DNA of 64,000 bases from Pedinophyceae sp. YPF-701 (Eukaryota > Chlorophyta > Pedinophyceae): NCBI GenBank assembly GCA_916048055.1, contig CAJZHL010000008.1:1272374-1336373 (forward strand), written 5' to 3'. Below are positions 38,713 through 46,159 of the stretch, one piece after another; position 1 is the first letter of the stretch; every line of letters begins with the position of its first letter. A model generated the notes under the pieces. The model did no database searches. It saw only the letters and a program-made list of their open reading frames with translations, and had not been told where the DNA came from. The position numbers and the translations under genes are program-made.

Positions 38713-40000
38713 ATGGTGCGCGTGGAGTCCAACGACGTGCTGGGGCTCAACAGCACCCTCCCAGCCTTCTCGGTGAGGACACCGTCGCCCAGACGGGTCG
38801 TGGCGCGCCACGCCACGGCGCCCTCGGACTGCAGCGCGCCGCTGGCACAACAACCGGCCGTCGCTCGCCCTCGAACATCGCTGATTCCTGCTTATATCGC
38901 GGATACGACACAACAGAGTCACAGCAGTGCATGGAAGTGCTCGGCATCACGCGACAGACCGCACCTGCGCCTCCTCGGCGCGCTCCTGCATGAGTGTCTC
39001 CACCGTCGCTCTCTCCCTCCCCACGCCCAGAAAGCTTCCACCGCATCCGCGAACACGATCCGGGCGTATACATCCTACTGCATCCGCGCCCCACGTGATC
39101 CTGTTCCCACAACAGAGAGAGGAGCGCCGCAACAGACCCCCTCCTGCTTCCGCGCCGCGGCGCGCACCCACCGGCCCCCGCCCCGCTCCCCGCACCCCCC
39201 CCGCAGCTCCCCGACCCTCGCTCGGGCAGCCAGGTGTCCTCCGAGGACCTCAAGGGCGCTCCGTCGCTGGTGATCTTCATGTGCAACCACTGTCCCTTCG
39301 TGGTGCTGCTCAAGGAGGCCATCGCGAGTCTGACCAAGGAATACGCCGGCAAGGGGGTGAAGATCGTGGCCATCAGCAGCAACGACGCCGCGGCGTACCC
39401 GCAGGACGGACCCGACATGATGGCAAAGGACGCAGAGGCGCACGCGTACTGTTTTCCGTACGTGTTCGACGAAACGCAGGAGGTGCGCGGCGGTGCCGCC
39501 CCCTCCCCCCCTCCCCCCGCGGTGTGCAGCCGCGTGCGCGAGCGGGCGCGGCGCGAGCGAACGCCTCGCGACGGCGGCGACAAGTCCACTGTCGGCTGTG
39601 GCGAGGGACGCGCGGGCCGGGGTCTCGCGCTGCGGTGTCGACGGACCAGGGGCGTGCGTGGGCGGCATGTGCGCCTCTCACGCGGCAGTCCTGAGTCTTT
39701 CCTGGAAAGCGAGTAAAAGACAAATATGGGTTTCCTTCTTCCGTCCCGCAGGTGGCCAAGGCGTTCGGGGTGATGTGCACGCCGGAGTTCTTCGTCGCGG
39801 ACGCCGCGGGCGTTCTCAAGTACCACGGCCGGTTCGACGCCGCGACGCCTGGGAACGGAAAGGAGGTCACCGGCGCCGATCTGCGGGCGGCGCTCGACGC
39901 GGTGCTGGCGGGGAAGCCAGTGGAGAGCCAGCCGCGGTCGATGGGGTGCAACCTGAAGTGGAAGGCCGGGAACGAGCCCGCGTACTTTGCGCTGCCGTGA
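38713..40000 (+). CDS. thioredoxin-like (AhpC/TSA-type) protein
   Basis: Thioredoxin-fold protein of the family often annotated as thioredoxin-like or redoxin-domain. Exons 38713-38772, 39207-39482 and 39752-40000 join in phase 0 and give 194 aa. Landmarks: SLVIFMCNHCPFVVLLKEAI (the N-H-C-P-F active-site-like motif, with one Cys in the usual CxxC position and one just before it), VKIVAISSNDAAAYPQDGPD, FPYVFDETQ, FGVMCTPEFFV, YHGRFDA, and the C-terminal SMGCNLKWKAGNEPAYF. The whole chain matches this family end to end, so the model is well supported despite a first exon of only 20 codons. The substrate is unknown; plastid or cytosolic location is not clear, as no transit peptide is visible. 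Confidence 0.85.
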
Positions 40001-40502: not shown

Positions 40503-43500
40503 TCATGCAAATTGACTCTCTGTCGGACACGGGCATCTGCGCCGACACGCCTCACGGCGTCGCCGGCAGCACGGGCGCCGCGCCGAGGCCTGACCCAGGG
40601 GGGGGGTGTCGACTGCATGCATCCACGGGCGGTGCAGCACCTCCGACACGACGTGCACGACACCATTCGGCACGGGGACGTCCGGCACAAGCACCTCGGC
40701 CCAGCATCCGTCGCCACACGCCACGAGCGCGGTCCCGCCGGCCGTGCAGTGGGGGGGGTGCTGGCTGCCAGCGTCGGCGCGAGCGCTGAGGCCGGTGTCG
40801 GCGGGCGGGGCGTCGTTGGTGCCGCACGAGTGCACAGCGTACGCGGTGCCCTCGAGGGACGTGACGCGGCCGCGGGCGCGCAGCTCGGACAGGGGGCGGC
40901 TGCGCGCCGCCACGTGGCTGCAACGCACCAAGGAGAAGGGGGGGGGTGTGATTGCCGCGGAGTCAGACACGGTCGCAAGGCCCGACGAGCTGCTTCGGCT
41001 CGCGCAGCGCGAGCGGTTTGGGTGTCCCGGCGCGTTCGCGTGCGCACCTGAACAGCAGAGCCTCGCGGGCCAGTCGGGTGGAGGGGGGTGTCCAGTCAGG
41101 CGGGAACGCGGCGTCGACGGGAACGAAGTACGTCGCGCCGCCGCTCGGGCCGGCGTCGCCGACCTCGGCCCAGAACGCCGGGCCCGCGTCCGCCAATACC
41201 CCCCCCATCTTCGTCAGGTTGAGCGCTGTCAGGGCGGTGAAGAGGGCCGCCGGCGGCGCGGCGGGAGCGGGAGACGGGGCGAGGGGCGATGACGTGCCGG
41301 GGGGCGCGAGGGTCGTGGCGTTGCCCGCGGCGTCGTCGGAGGTCTGCATCGGAGAGAGACGGTCGATGACAGACTGACTCATGTCAGGGGACCGCGGCTG
41401 GGCAGTGGACAGAGGGAGGGGCGCGCAGAGCAGGCGACACAGGGCGCACAGAAGCAGCAGAGAGGTGCTCGCAGGCTGCGGTGCGTCCGTCTGACGGGAG
41501 CAGGTAGAACAGCAACCAACCAAACCCGATTCGGGCTCCACGATTTTTTGTGATTCGGGGGGCTGGGGCGCACCTCGCGGACCGCCGCGATGTGCGACAG
41601 CAGCGCCGCGGCCGCAACGGACGCCATGTAGTCCTCGCCCACCTCGGCGCCGTCGTCGCGCACCACCGCCAGCGGCACCACGCTCAGGCCTGCCACCATG
41701 CCGTCAAGCGGAGACTCCCCCCCCTGATCGGCCGGCGCTGCCGGCGCGAGCTCCGCGGGCCCCAGCGCGTCCTCCTCGTCGGACGGCAGCCTGCAGAGCT
41801 TGAATCAACGACGCAAGTCGCCATTGAAATTGTTTCTACCAATTACCTGGTGGTGGCAGCGTGGCGGTCTCTGAACCAGACGGGTCGAGCGCCGGAGCAG
41901 CCGTTGCAAGGCCCCCGCACCTGAGGAGCGCCTGCACTTCCGCAGCGTCACCCCCCGCAACCTCTCCGGCGTACGCGGCCGCGGCGTCCGACGCGAACGT
42001 GCGGAACCGCGCGAGCGGGATGCGCCGCAGCTCCCCGCGGTGGGCGCGGCGCATAAAGGCGCGCAGCATGCCCGCGACGGACCAGCGCCGGGCGTGCCCG
42101 GTGGACCCGCCGCTTCCGTCGTCGCCTTCGTCGCCGTCGTGGCCGCCGAGGGCGAGGGCGGAGTACTGAGACGCATCGAAGTCGCTCAGCGAGGCGGCCG
42201 AGGAGGGAGGGGTGTCGTACGATCCCGCTGACGACGAGGACGTGCCTTGGACCTGTGGGTTTGAGAGCAGTGATCGATGACGTGGGAGGGGATGCGTTGG
42301 GGGGAGGTTTGCGCCAAAGCAACAGCGCCTGCATGTGCGAACGCCGCTCGAGCCTGCAGCCCGCCTACCGGACGCGCGTGGCAACCTTCGCCCGTGCCAC
42401 CGTCGTCCTAGCAACAGTAAACCCCCCCCTCGAACACAACACCCCCCGCAGCGCACCTGCACGCCCGTGTCGACCTCGCCCGTGAAGCCCTCGCGGCTCA
42501 CCACGCCGTCGGCCTGCAGCCAGAACCCGTCGCCCGTGCGCCACCGGAACGACAGCGGCGCGCGCGGCACCCACCCCGCAGCCTCCCAGTTGGCACCCCA
42601 CTTGTTCTGCATCTGCTGCAGGGCCTCGCTGTCGCTGCCGCGCACGCCGATCTCCGCGACGGTCCCGCGGCCGCCGTGCCCGAACAGCGCCACGCGGAGC
42701 CACCTGGACGAGCGACGGGGAGGGGGGGGCGTGGGAGGTGCGTCGTCGCATCGTGGTGCTGTCGCGGCACGCAGCGAGCGCCGGTGCGGCGTCGTTCGCA
42801 AGCGGTCCTGCATGGTTGCGCAAGCAGCGGAGAGCGCGATGGACAGCGAGGGCCGTGCGGGGTGTTCCCGGGCCGGGCTGTGCCGCAACAGGCGTACTGC
42901 CTGCGGTGCTACGAGGGGCGGGACCGGACCCGCCGCTGCCCTGGCGGAACGCGGAGACGAGGAGCTTGACGGAGATGTCGGGCTCGCAGGCGACCTGGCG
43001 GTACGAGAGGCTGATGCGGCCGCCGCGCATGGGCGCGATTTGCTCGAAGGTGCGGGCCTGGAGGTCGAGGTGGTCGCTGCCGCACTCGGGGCACGAGTCC
43101 GTGACCACGATCTTGACGGAGCGACGGGAGACGTCGGAGTTGCAGCGGCCCTCGAACGGCCAGCGGTCCTGTCAGGGACGCAAGGGGGAGGAAGTGGGGG
43201 GTCGTGAGGGCGGGGTGGTCTCGTGCGGTGGCGGCGGTGGAGGTGCGCGGTGGTTGCGGGCTTTGTGGTATATTGTGCGCCGTGTGATCCGAGCGAGGTG
43301 GGGTCCGAGTGTGCGTGGGAGGCGAGGTGAGGTTGGGGGGGCGAGGCGGACCTGGCACACGACCTCGAAGCACGCGCCGCAGCCCTTGACGGCGAGGTTG
43401 TTGAAGAAGTAGTTCGACGTGGCTGCGGGCGGCGCGAGCGGGCGCGGCCCGTGAGCGGCGCGCGGTCGCGGAATTGAAAATCGATGTAGCTGCGTCGTAG

Positions 43501-43938
43501 AGCCGGCTCCGTGGACGCCCTGAACCGGCCACTGAGACTCGGAAGGCAAGGACAGGATACGAGACGCAGGTGGAGGGCGCACCGAGCGCTCCCACACGCC
43601 AGTAGGGCCACTGGTCTCGAGACAACCTCTGATAACCGCAGCTGCCGATCGACGTGCCGTACGAGGGGCTGTCTGGATCCATTCCGTCGGGCGCTCCACC
43701 GTAGAAAGTCCCTGCAGCGGACGAGGCGGAACGCGGCAAGGTCGTTCGGCGAGTCGGAAAAAAAGAGCGGGAAATTCCGATCCGTTTCCGGGCTCGTCCG
43801 TCACCGCCGAAGACTGTCGACGTCGCGTCTCGCACCGATGCCATCCCGCCACTCGCTCAGCGGCTGTACGGCGGCCGCGGGGGCCGAGAGAGCGCCGATG
43901 GCGATGAGCAGCAGTGTACACAGCAACGCACGCCGCAT
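40503..43938 (-). CDS. secreted expansin fused to a fasciclin (FAS1) domain, 9 exons
   Basis: Probable cell-wall protein. Minus-strand exons are 43938-43836, 43711-43583, 43422-43352, 43168-42930, 42703-42457, 42252-41921, 41790-41574, 41397-41048 and 40917-40503. All eight joins agree in phase and give 700 aa. Residues 1-23 are a signal peptide (ALLCTLLLIAIGALSAPAAA). The expansin double-psi barrel follows: TFYGGAPDGMDPDSPSYG, SCGYQ, KGCGACFEVVC, and VVTDSCPECGSDHLDL with the conserved Asp. Exon 5 is the CBM63-like domain (WLRVALFGHGGRGTVAEIGV, MQNKWGANWE). A Ser/Asp/Gly-rich linker and about 180 unassigned residues follow. A FAS1 domain lies at about 495-657: LFTALTALNLTKMGG, TYFVPVDAAFP, ALLFSHVAA formed by a splice, and VPNGVVHVVSEVL. 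Expansins loosen walls and FAS1 domains mediate adhesion. Two genes read as one cannot be fully excluded, but no stop or new signal peptide separates them. Confidence 0.7.
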
Positions 43939-44724
43939 GGTGCCCTCGACGCGCGAACGCCCGCGAGTTTCGTCACGGATCACGAGTTTCGTGACGGATC
44001 TACGATCACGATCGATTCGACGCGGCTGTGCGGCCACGGGAGCCGTGAATCGCAGCACCAGACTGCTGTGTCACGAAAAAACCGGGCGCGGCCCGACGCG
44101 TGGCACCACGGCCCTTAAAACCTGCGCGAGCGCAACACCTGCAGGCCAAGAGAACCACAGGGTATCACGCTGGGCGCGTCAAGCGCGGACGGGACGTCGC
44201 TGTGCCAGCACTGCCGCCGCAAGTACAGAGGCGAGCTGCGAGTCGGCTTGGAATCGCGCGGCGTGCCCTTCCTCTATCCAGGACACCGTGGAAGTGCTCC
44301 CGGTGCACCGGGGCGCCGGCACACGTCGCCCGCGGCGTCGCTCGCCAACCCACTGCAGCTGCACACCAGGTAGAACGCTATCACGGGTGGGTATAATCCG
44401 CCGTCGTCGCTTCCAAACCACCGCAGCACGGTGCAGCTGAGCCGGCACGGCCCAGCTGCGCCGCGCAGCGGCCCTCGCGGCGTCGGCGCGCCCCCGCGGC
44501 CCGCCCCCCGTAGCTGCGCCCAACACTGCGCAGACGCGCTCCCGCCGCCGGACGGCCGCAGCGTCGCAGAAGGGGTGATTCGCCGCGCAGGGACACCGCG
44601 CGACGACAGCCCGTCGGGGAGCTCGATCACAGCTCGCTGCGGCCTCCAGCGTCACGGACATCCCGGGGCCCGCAGCCCAGCTGCGTCCACGCCGTCGAGC
44701 ACGGCGCTCTATGGGGGGGGGTGT
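43939..44724. other. intergenic region, no gene seen
   Basis: Lies between the expansin-FAS1 start and the RPL17 stop, both on the minus strand. It should contain the expansin promoter. Short frames only; a direct repeat CGAGTTTCGTSACGGATC occurs twice at about 43968-44002. Confidence 0.4.
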
Positions 44725-46159
44725 TTACGCCTTGAAGCCGATGGGCTTGTAGCCCGTGCGGAGGAACCGCGCGGCGGCCTTGCGCGACAGCTTGGGCGCG
44801 CGCCCGTCCTCCACCTCCTTGGCAACACCCTCGTCGCGCTCCGCCAGGATCAGCTCGATGTGGCAGGGGCTCGACTGGTACGGGTTCACGCGGCCGTGCG
44901 CGCGGTACGTCCTGCGGCGGCCCTTCATCGCCTTCTGGACCACCACCGAGCGCACAAACAGGTTGTCCATGTTGAGCGTGCCCTCAGCCTGCGGTGGGAG
45001 GGGGAGAGTTGAGAGGGTTGAGAGGCCGCGGGGGGGCGGGGGAAGGTGGCAAGGCGCGGTGGGCGGGCCGGGCGGGTCGCGTTCGGGCGGACGGCCGGCG
45101 CGGGAGGCAGGCCCGGTGGACGACGGCGGGGAGAGTAGCGCAGGACGGCTGCGAGGACGCTACGCTTGGCCCGGGGGCTGGGGGGAGAGGAGAGGAAACG
45201 GCGAGCGCGGCGACGCGGCCTCGGGGCCGTCCGGGGCGCGGTGGAGCCGGGAGGCGAGCGCGGCGCTTGTGAGGGGGAAACGGGCTCCCGGCGCCTCGGA
45301 CGGGGGTTTGGAGGGCCGCGGCGGTACGGCGGCGGCTGTGCGGTGTCTGGCATGCGAGCGGGGATGCCGGGGGCGTCGCGGGAGGGGTGCGGAGGGGCCT
45401 CAGGCTTTGGCCGCCAGGTGGAGCAGCGACGCTGCCGCGCCGTGCGTGCCCGGGGAGGCGGGCGGCGGGGCGCGGCGGGTGGAGGGAAATGCGTGCTGCC
45501 GGCGGGCGTGGCGCGGCGGGGTCGCGGGGCCTCGTGCGGCCGCGCTCACCTCGGCGTTGGCCTCGGCGTTCTTGAGGAGGCCCAGCACGAACTCGACGGA
45601 CTTCTTCGGCCACCGGCCCTGGCCGTTGGTGGAGCCCTCGTTCTTCGCCTGCGCGGTCCGGCCGACGCCGCTGTTGTACCGGCGGAAGACGATGCAGCGG
45701 GTCCCGTCGAGCACCGCGTTCATGTACTTCTTCGCCTCCGCGAGGTCCAGGCCGATGATGGCCTTGGCCGTCTCGCGGGTGTTCTTGAAGTGGGTCCGCA
45801 GGTGCGACCCCTTCGCCTGCAACGCGCCAGCACGAGCAGTACAATCGCTCAGGCACTGCGGCACAGGGCTCCGTGCCCCCACAAGGCGCCCTGGCAAAGG
45901 TGCGGAGACAGCCTCGCTTTCCTCTCTATCGACGGCATCCGCGCGACGGGTCGCCGCGGACAGCGGACGCCGCCAAACGCGGCGGAGAGCCCGAGGCAAG
46001 AGCCGCCTCCTTCCGCCCACTGGGTCGGAAGCCCGCCACGAACGGGCCAGCGGCGAGCTGGTTGCTCGCAACGTCCCACCGCGCGGCGCGCGGGCCCGTG
46101 CGCACCTTGGCGACGCGGTCAGCCTTGGAGTTGAGCTCGCTGTAGGACTTTGCCACCAT
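44725..46159 (-). CDS. RPL17: 60S ribosomal protein L17 (uL22)
   Basis: Cytosolic large-subunit protein lining the peptide exit tunnel. Exons on the minus strand are 46159-46106, 45816-45550 and 44988-44725, all phase 0, giving 194 aa. Family blocks: [70 protein letters not shown] and [10 protein letters not shown]. The first exon ([18 protein letters not shown]) is slightly longer than in animals or plants, so the start is less certain than the rest. It is head-to-head with the AlaRS gene, 257 bp apart. Confidence 0.92.

Follow-up and report, generated by a model that had tools for sequence, protein, structure and literature searches.

The window analysed here is a stretch of 64,000 nucleotides from the green alga Pedinophyceae sp. 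YPF-701 (C8:1272374-1336373, in an assembly of 27.9 Mb and 32 contigs). On its minus strand, from 43938 to 40503 in window coordinates, lies a gene of nine exons that encodes an expansin followed by a long linker and a predicted FAS1 (fasciclin) domain. The location is that given in an earlier note on this DNA. All eight introns begin with GT and end with AG, and the frame is maintained throughout, which bears out the note's description of one open gene with eight phase-matched introns. The spliced product has 682 residues, with its stop within exon 9, so the 700 residues given earlier were slightly too many. The components of the gene are as follows.

Exon 1, 43836..43938, minus strand: putative signal peptide and mature N-terminus, residues 1-34; mature start PLSEWRDGIGTFYGG
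Exon 2, 43583..43711, minus strand: first part of the expansin barrel (GTFYGGAPDGM...GSCGY)
Exon 3, 43352..43422, minus strand: expansin barrel, CGACFEVVC
Exon 4, 42930..43168, minus strand: expansin barrel, TDSCPECGSDHLDLQ, up to the start of domain 2; DPBB_1 match, 2.6e-13
Exon 5, 42457..42703, minus strand: C-terminal (CBM63-like) expansin domain, last residues DTGVQ; Expansin_C match, 5.2e-10
Intron 5, 42253..42456, minus strand: 204 nucleotides, a multiple of three, without an in-frame stop
Exon 6, 41921..42252, minus strand: first half of the linker, residues 264-373, without family assignment
Exon 7, 41574..41790, minus strand: second half of the linker, residues 374-446, without family assignment
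Exon 8, 41048..41343, minus strand: short Pro/Ala/Ser-rich stretch, then the first half of the predicted FAS1 domain (TYFVPVDAAF)
Exon 9, 40503..40917, minus strand: second half of the predicted FAS1 domain (VPDVPVPNGVVHVVSEVL), basic Cys/Arg tail and stop

Third-codon-position GC is 0.72-1.00 across the nine exons; of the two linker exons, exon 6 has 0.87 and exon 7 has 0.92. By eye, exon 6 has a second possible donor (TTG/GTAGAAAC) that preserves the frame as well; the GTGCGGGG donor was chosen, and it is implied by the deposited protein too.

Domains, fold and start of the protein

The joined protein matches three Pfam families above their cut-offs. DPBB_1 (PF03330) covers residues 80-157 (50.4 bits, 2.6e-13) and is directly followed by Expansin_C (PF01357) at residues 178-249 (39.7 bits, 5.2e-10); these correspond to the double-psi barrel and CBM63-like domain of the earlier note. 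Fasciclin (PF02469) covers residues 513-639 with 30.6 bits against a cut-off of 22 (4.5e-7), and the FAS1 piece alone scores 36.1 bits. This means that the proposed FAS1 domain does lie in the same reading frame of the 682 residues, an assignment made at the level of sequence. The protein continues for 419 residues after the second expansin domain, of which about 240 form the linker from expansin to FAS1, ending in the Pro/Ala/Ser-rich LAPPGTSSPLAPSPAPAAPPAA (by eye). Between Expansin_C and Fasciclin the sole Pfam match is DUF5423 at residues 263-295 (E 0.48, 9.7 bits against a cut-off of 25), and the centre of the protein (about 264-495) thus stays without assignment, as previously stated. 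The NCBIfam EXLX1 model scores 41.4 bits, far under its cut-off of 100.

Four residues of the expansin half, D135, D146, W192 and W226 (numbering of the deposited protein, P0001), do not vary among the 18 aligned rows, which include P0001. In expansins, acidic residues conserved in domain 1 and aromatic ones conserved in domain 2 have functional roles, and we take the four positions as their putative equivalents. In the FAS1 half, TYFVPVDAAF and VPDVPVPNGVVHVVSEVL, which we take to be the FAS1 motifs H1 and H2, align with the CupS structures 6tjv and 2mxa. The whole-sequence E value is 8.1e-4 (6tjv), and the two stretches alone give 0.15 and 97. A profile of seven relatives matches CupS and a solved fasciclin weakly (0.0034-0.0065).

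An AlphaFold model of P0001, made with 18 aligned sequences, was compared with solved structures by Foldseek. Predicted local distance difference test (pLDDT) values, averaged by block, are 71-95 at residues 81-270 and 50-56 at residues 51-80. The best solved matches are the expansins 7xc8 (2.4e-15), 1n10 and 2hcz, followed by fungal and bacterial expansins. The expansin half is thus shown, at the level of a predicted model, to adopt the expansin fold.

The deposited protein, P0001 (692 residues), is itself a gene prediction and is the 100% identity match of the spliced model. From residue 35 of the model and residue 45 of P0001 (GTFYGG to the end), 648 residues are identical, implying the same splice sites in the deposited record. 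The two differ in their starts (43938-43700): P0001 has its first codon within exon 1, in a different frame, and continues across intron 1 without a signal peptide, so that the public record presents an expansin lacking a secretion signal. The nine-exon model, from 43938, begins with a hydrophobic leader, which a hydrophobicity scan ranks as the most hydrophobic stretch of the whole model, in agreement with the signal peptide of the earlier note. The leader is followed by PLSEWRDGIGTFYGG, which parallels LSDWRQG/LSDWRDG...TFYGG in relatives, with counterparts LSDWRQGIATFYGG in P0003 and LSDWRDGYTTFYGG in P0006. Since these relatives share the LSDWR-type mature start, the start in the deposited record is very probably an error and that of the earlier note correct, as judged from the sequences. 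At the other end, the same scan finds no hydrophobic C-terminal stretch of the glycosylphosphatidylinositol (GPI)-anchor type: the tail is basic and Cys-rich, and lies outside the 12 most hydrophobic windows.

Relatives with and without FAS1

Protein searches with the whole length, the expansin region and an alignment yielded at least 27 relatives (P0001-P0027), the alga's own protein included. The whole-length search returned only P0001 among the 7992 scored candidates sharing most words, where low-complexity words were presumably dominant; the others were found with the expansin region alone and with the alignment query (best of 7999 candidates). A scan of a set of viral contigs gave 30 pattern matches, no relative among them. 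Pfam scans covered 18 of the 27 relatives. For the other nine, of 142-284 residues, Fasciclin does not occur in the precomputed Pfam columns. Fasciclin exceeds its cut-off in four of the 18 scanned proteins, and two more are candidates for a FAS1 domain.

P0001: 692 residues, Fasciclin 30.5 bits
P0002: 650 residues, JGI, Fasciclin 29.8 bits
P0006: 661 residues, ENA, Fasciclin 23.7 bits
P0016: 812 residues, Fasciclin 24.5 bits
P0010: 665 residues, EukProt, labelled Pavlova lutheri, Fasciclin 18.4 bits, under the cut-off
P0005: 1127 residues, JGI, no Pfam Fasciclin; C-terminus matches the FAS1 part of P0002

In P0002, P0006 and P0016 both domains score above the Pfam cut-offs. This contradicts the possibility, raised in the earlier note as a ground for refuting the fusion, that no homologue carries both. 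The C-terminus of P0005 matches the FAS1 part of P0002 with an E value of 4.35e-8 (blastp, in a comparison of four sequences), and none of 1000 shuffles scored as high, compared with 8 of 1000 against P0001. The FAS1 parts of P0001 and P0006 are also alike (4 of 1000 shuffles as high).

The six proteins fall into two layouts. In layout 1 (P0001, P0002 and P0005), the expansin is followed by a long linker and a C-terminal FAS1; the linkers of P0002 and P0005 resemble each other (5 of 1000 shuffles as high), and P0002 has a Pro/Ala run ahead of FAS1 similar to LAPPGTSSPLAPSPAPAAPPAA. In layout 2 (P0006, P0010 and P0016), FAS1 stands close behind the expansin and about 200 or more residues follow. 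This post-FAS1 region, shared by the three proteins, is without Pfam match; it is beta-rich in the P0006 model, and its propeller-like structural matches are weak and of low confidence. Those relatives that are metagenome gene calls were likely read without splicing.

A tree was built from 27 expansin segments; P0009 contributes two rows, and P0027 is left out, as is one further short piece of P0026. When the other rows are not counted, the two layouts separate into a group each, with support of 100/99 for both; with all rows, P0022, a fragment of 161 residues, falls inside the layout 1 group (fork 87/96). The approximately unbiased (AU) test does not reject a grouping of all six FAS1-bearing proteins in one clade (p-AU 0.42), so that these sequences would fit either one fusion event or two.

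The expansins of Coccomyxa, Myrmecia, Parachlorella, Apatococcus and Micractinium have tails that are Ser/Pro-rich, Cys-rich or formed by a second expansin, with no Fasciclin match in Pfam. The Closterium protein P0008 and P0026, from a metagenome-assembled genome, likewise have other tails without such a match. By these sequences, FAS1 is one among several tails on this type of expansin. P0009 (Myrmecia bisecta, 547 residues) contains two expansins and a Cys-rich tail.

Genome setting, gene boundaries and proposed function

According to the available passages of PMC12574857, Pedinophyceae sp. YPF-701 is now named Akinorimonas japonica, a small flagellate from marine sand, and its genome paper is cited there as Repetti et al. 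2022, New Phytol. The same passages report that transmission electron microscopy revealed no typical cell wall and that cell fusion was observed, while walled cells are formed in the related Oistococcus okinawensis. A protein search of the whole assembly found four places, all of them exons of the expansin-FAS1 gene, and DPBB_1 and Expansin_C have one match each; no second expansin gene was found by these protein and Pfam searches. The matches listed include 13 other FAS1 places. Derivation of the FAS1 domain from one of the other FAS1 genes in this genome is not supported: among the eight loci compared (L001-L008), the best match has 42.9% identity over 28 residues (E 0.09). At C9:379799-381596, on the minus strand, three FAS1 matches lie in a row, one with two TGA codons inside the matched stretch.

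In the same assembly, read exon by exon with Pfam, cellulose synthase (PF03552) and GH9 have no match. The family Chitin_synth_2 has five places (C12, C14, C28 and C31); two of these, on C14, score equally and are separated by 5.2 kb. Weak matches are seen to GH5 (two places) and GH18 (one place), and the GH45 search was uninformative, as no control matched.

Around the gene, from 40600 to 44730, runs of G or C at least seven long are numerous by eye, in exons and introns alike. At 39099-40000, on the plus strand, lies a gene with an AhpC/TSA-redoxin match in its first open stretch; it stands end to end with the expansin-FAS1 gene, with about 500 bases between the stops. Directly upstream, at 44725-45816 on the minus strand, is a ribosomal protein L17/L22 gene of at least two exons. 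A scan for bacterial promoters and terminators gave nothing useful for this eukaryotic locus.

The preferred reading, which is given somewhat better than even confidence, is that the gene makes one secreted expansin-linker-FAS1 protein that is tethered to the surface or matrix and loosens a probably non-cellulosic glycan. The product would consist of a two-domain expansin, the linker and the C-terminal FAS1 domain. Its expansin half would bind a beta-1,4-linked glycan and loosen interchain contacts without cutting, while FAS1 and the linker would keep the protein on the cell surface or within the extracellular matrix, confining loosening to these sites. The role in adhesion is taken from the family name and should be regarded as putative. 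Absence of a typical cell wall changes the possible substrate of such a protein. The target would be a chitin-like or mannan-like glycan, in a transient coat (zygote or resting stage) or in mucilage. A non-cellulosic target is more likely than a growing cellulose wall, given the lack of a typical wall, the lack of a cellulose-synthase match and the presence of several chitin-synthase-like genes. The available passages of PMC9888185 report chitin binding for fungal loosenins and for the BsEXLX1 CBM63, with no substantial boost of chitinase by any of the loosenins.

Two alternatives concern the gene itself. If the prediction had merged two neighbours, the expansin would end near 41.9 kb, with FAS1 encoded by a gene of its own. 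Such a merger has an apparent parallel in P0004 of Coccomyxa subellipsoidea, which, with a tetratricopeptide repeat (TPR) region ahead of the expansin, looks like two genes joined in prediction, and the 401-residue product that would result from keeping intron 6 also lacks FAS1. Here, however, the frame of exon 5, the last expansin exon, runs without a stop through intron 5 and exon 6 as far as 41836, and expansin and linker are continuous whether intron 5 is removed or kept, owing to its length of 204 nucleotides and lack of an in-frame stop. None of the ATG codons of the spliced frame after the expansin (residues 325, 330, 405, 429, 492 and 644) opens a stretch that reaches the hydrophobicity of the signal peptide (1.33 against 2.21). 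The strongest support for a single gene comes from the pairing itself, since P0002, P0006 and P0016, from other sources, hold both domains in the same order. Taken together, the open frame, the lack of a secreted restart, the high third-position GC of the linker exons and the recurrence elsewhere favour a single gene and suggest that the fusion is real rather than misread, and a merger is considered very improbable. Somewhat less remote, and still improbable, is that one fused gene gives two products, the full FAS1 form and a shorter expansin made by retention of intron 6, in which an in-frame stop is met after 401 residues. Retention of any one of introns 1-4, 7 or 8 would also lead to an early stop, so intron 6 is not special, and the retained-intron transcript is hypothetical.

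The other two alternatives concern the substrate of the fused protein. It is unlikely, yet deserves the most weight among the alternatives, that the alga's own coat contains cellulose and is what the expansin acts on, as in walled algae. The four Asp and Trp positions identical in all 18 rows agree with this, as do a GT2 gene distantly like the bacterial cellulose synthase BcsA and the walled cells of O. okinawensis (PMC12574857, passages available); against it, the genome has no match to PF03552, although an intron-split gene could escape. Action on outside material (prey wall, host or decaying plants), with FAS1 as a binding part, is a little less likely. It would suit an alga without a typical wall that has GH5 and GH18 matches; these amount to only two weak places and one place, respectively, and GH9 has no match. 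Moreover, relatives without FAS1 are present in walled trebouxiophyte genera.

Several observations weigh against the preferred reading of a single secreted, tethered fusion protein. The FAS1 region of the P0001 model has pLDDT values of only 31-49, and no FAS1 structure is among the 50 Foldseek matches listed for the P0001 or P0006 model, the latter having block pLDDT values of 65-76 in parts of residues 271-340. P0006 and P0016 clear the Fasciclin cut-off narrowly (23.7 and 24.5 bits against 22), P0010 falls below it with 18.4 bits, and P0005 lacks a Pfam FAS1 match, also when the piece is scanned by itself. Among the precomputed Pfam columns, only those of P0001 and P0002 give Fasciclin; those of P0006, P0010 and P0016 lack it. 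The FAS1 parts of P0002 and P0006 have no real likeness (467 of 1000 shuffles as high), and the linker is barely conserved, with 139, 46, 441 and 159 of 1000 shuffles as high for P0001 against P0002, P0005, P0003 and P0011, respectively. The predicted stop on retention of intron 6 counts here as well. In addition, Pfam searches that read the genome exon by exon may miss split genes, which makes the absences provisional, and the GT2 gene, L011, with its distant resemblance to BcsA (5e-9), keeps cellulose possible.

A wider proposal, offered only as an unlikely conjecture, is that expansin-FAS1 proteins form a distinct, old secreted family of naked flagellates, tied to the surface and shifted from growth of cellulose walls to loosening of chitin-like or mannan-like coats, for example in cell fusion or coat formation. 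Pavlova lutheri is a haptophyte without a cellulose wall. If its label on P0010 is true, the family would occur in two unrelated algal phyla.

Comparison with known systems

No description of an expansin-FAS1 fusion was found in the literature searched, which was seen in part and whose scope excluded most subscription papers, the genome paper among them; within it, the earlier suggestion of a new architecture for algal surfaces stands. In the passages available from one paper that names expansin and fasciclin together, the two are separate proteins, and in another, which names both domains, the fasciclin protein stands alone, with 179 residues. A survey of 2461 plant and algal expansins does not contain "fasciclin", "fusion" or "pedino" in the main text available (PMC11547041), and the passages available from PMC9888185, PMC3191482 and PMC6514703 contain no description of an expansin-FAS1 protein.

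Expansins are discussed as tools that enlarge cellulose walls. In this alga, without a typical wall or a cellulose-synthase match, the sole expansin found has been kept, with a putative secretion signal and linked to a predicted FAS1 domain. This makes it possible to test what an expansin targets where a cellulose wall is absent, and it may be a natural case of an expansin fixed in place through a tethering domain.

The two-domain expansins (alpha- and beta-expansins, Phl p 1, Zea m 1 and bacterial EXLX1) share the DPBB and CBM63-like domains and provide the best structural and sequence matches; a signal peptide is typical of the family. They end after domain 2, whereas the YPF-701 protein continues for 419 residues that include FAS1. 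Fasciclin-like arabinogalactan proteins and the algal-CAM of Volvox are likewise secreted and place FAS1 beside a Pro/Ala/Ser-rich stretch, and to our knowledge they are without expansin. In the former, this stretch is of the Pro-rich arabinogalactan-protein type and many members have a GPI anchor signal; unlike them, the YPF-701 protein has no hydrophobic C-terminus of the GPI type. The partner modules of swollenin-type proteins are sugar-binding or hydrolytic, not FAS1. Microbial multidomain expansins, such as these swollenins, resemble the YPF-701 protein in joining expansin to extra domains (PMC9888185, passages available). The closest named relatives, the expansins of Coccomyxa, Myrmecia, Parachlorella, Apatococcus and Micractinium, share the start [YF]GGA.DG...SCGYG and differ in having tails without a Fasciclin match. 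Green-algal expansins of this type thus carry diverse tails, which may be FAS1, Ser/Pro-rich, Cys-rich or a second expansin.

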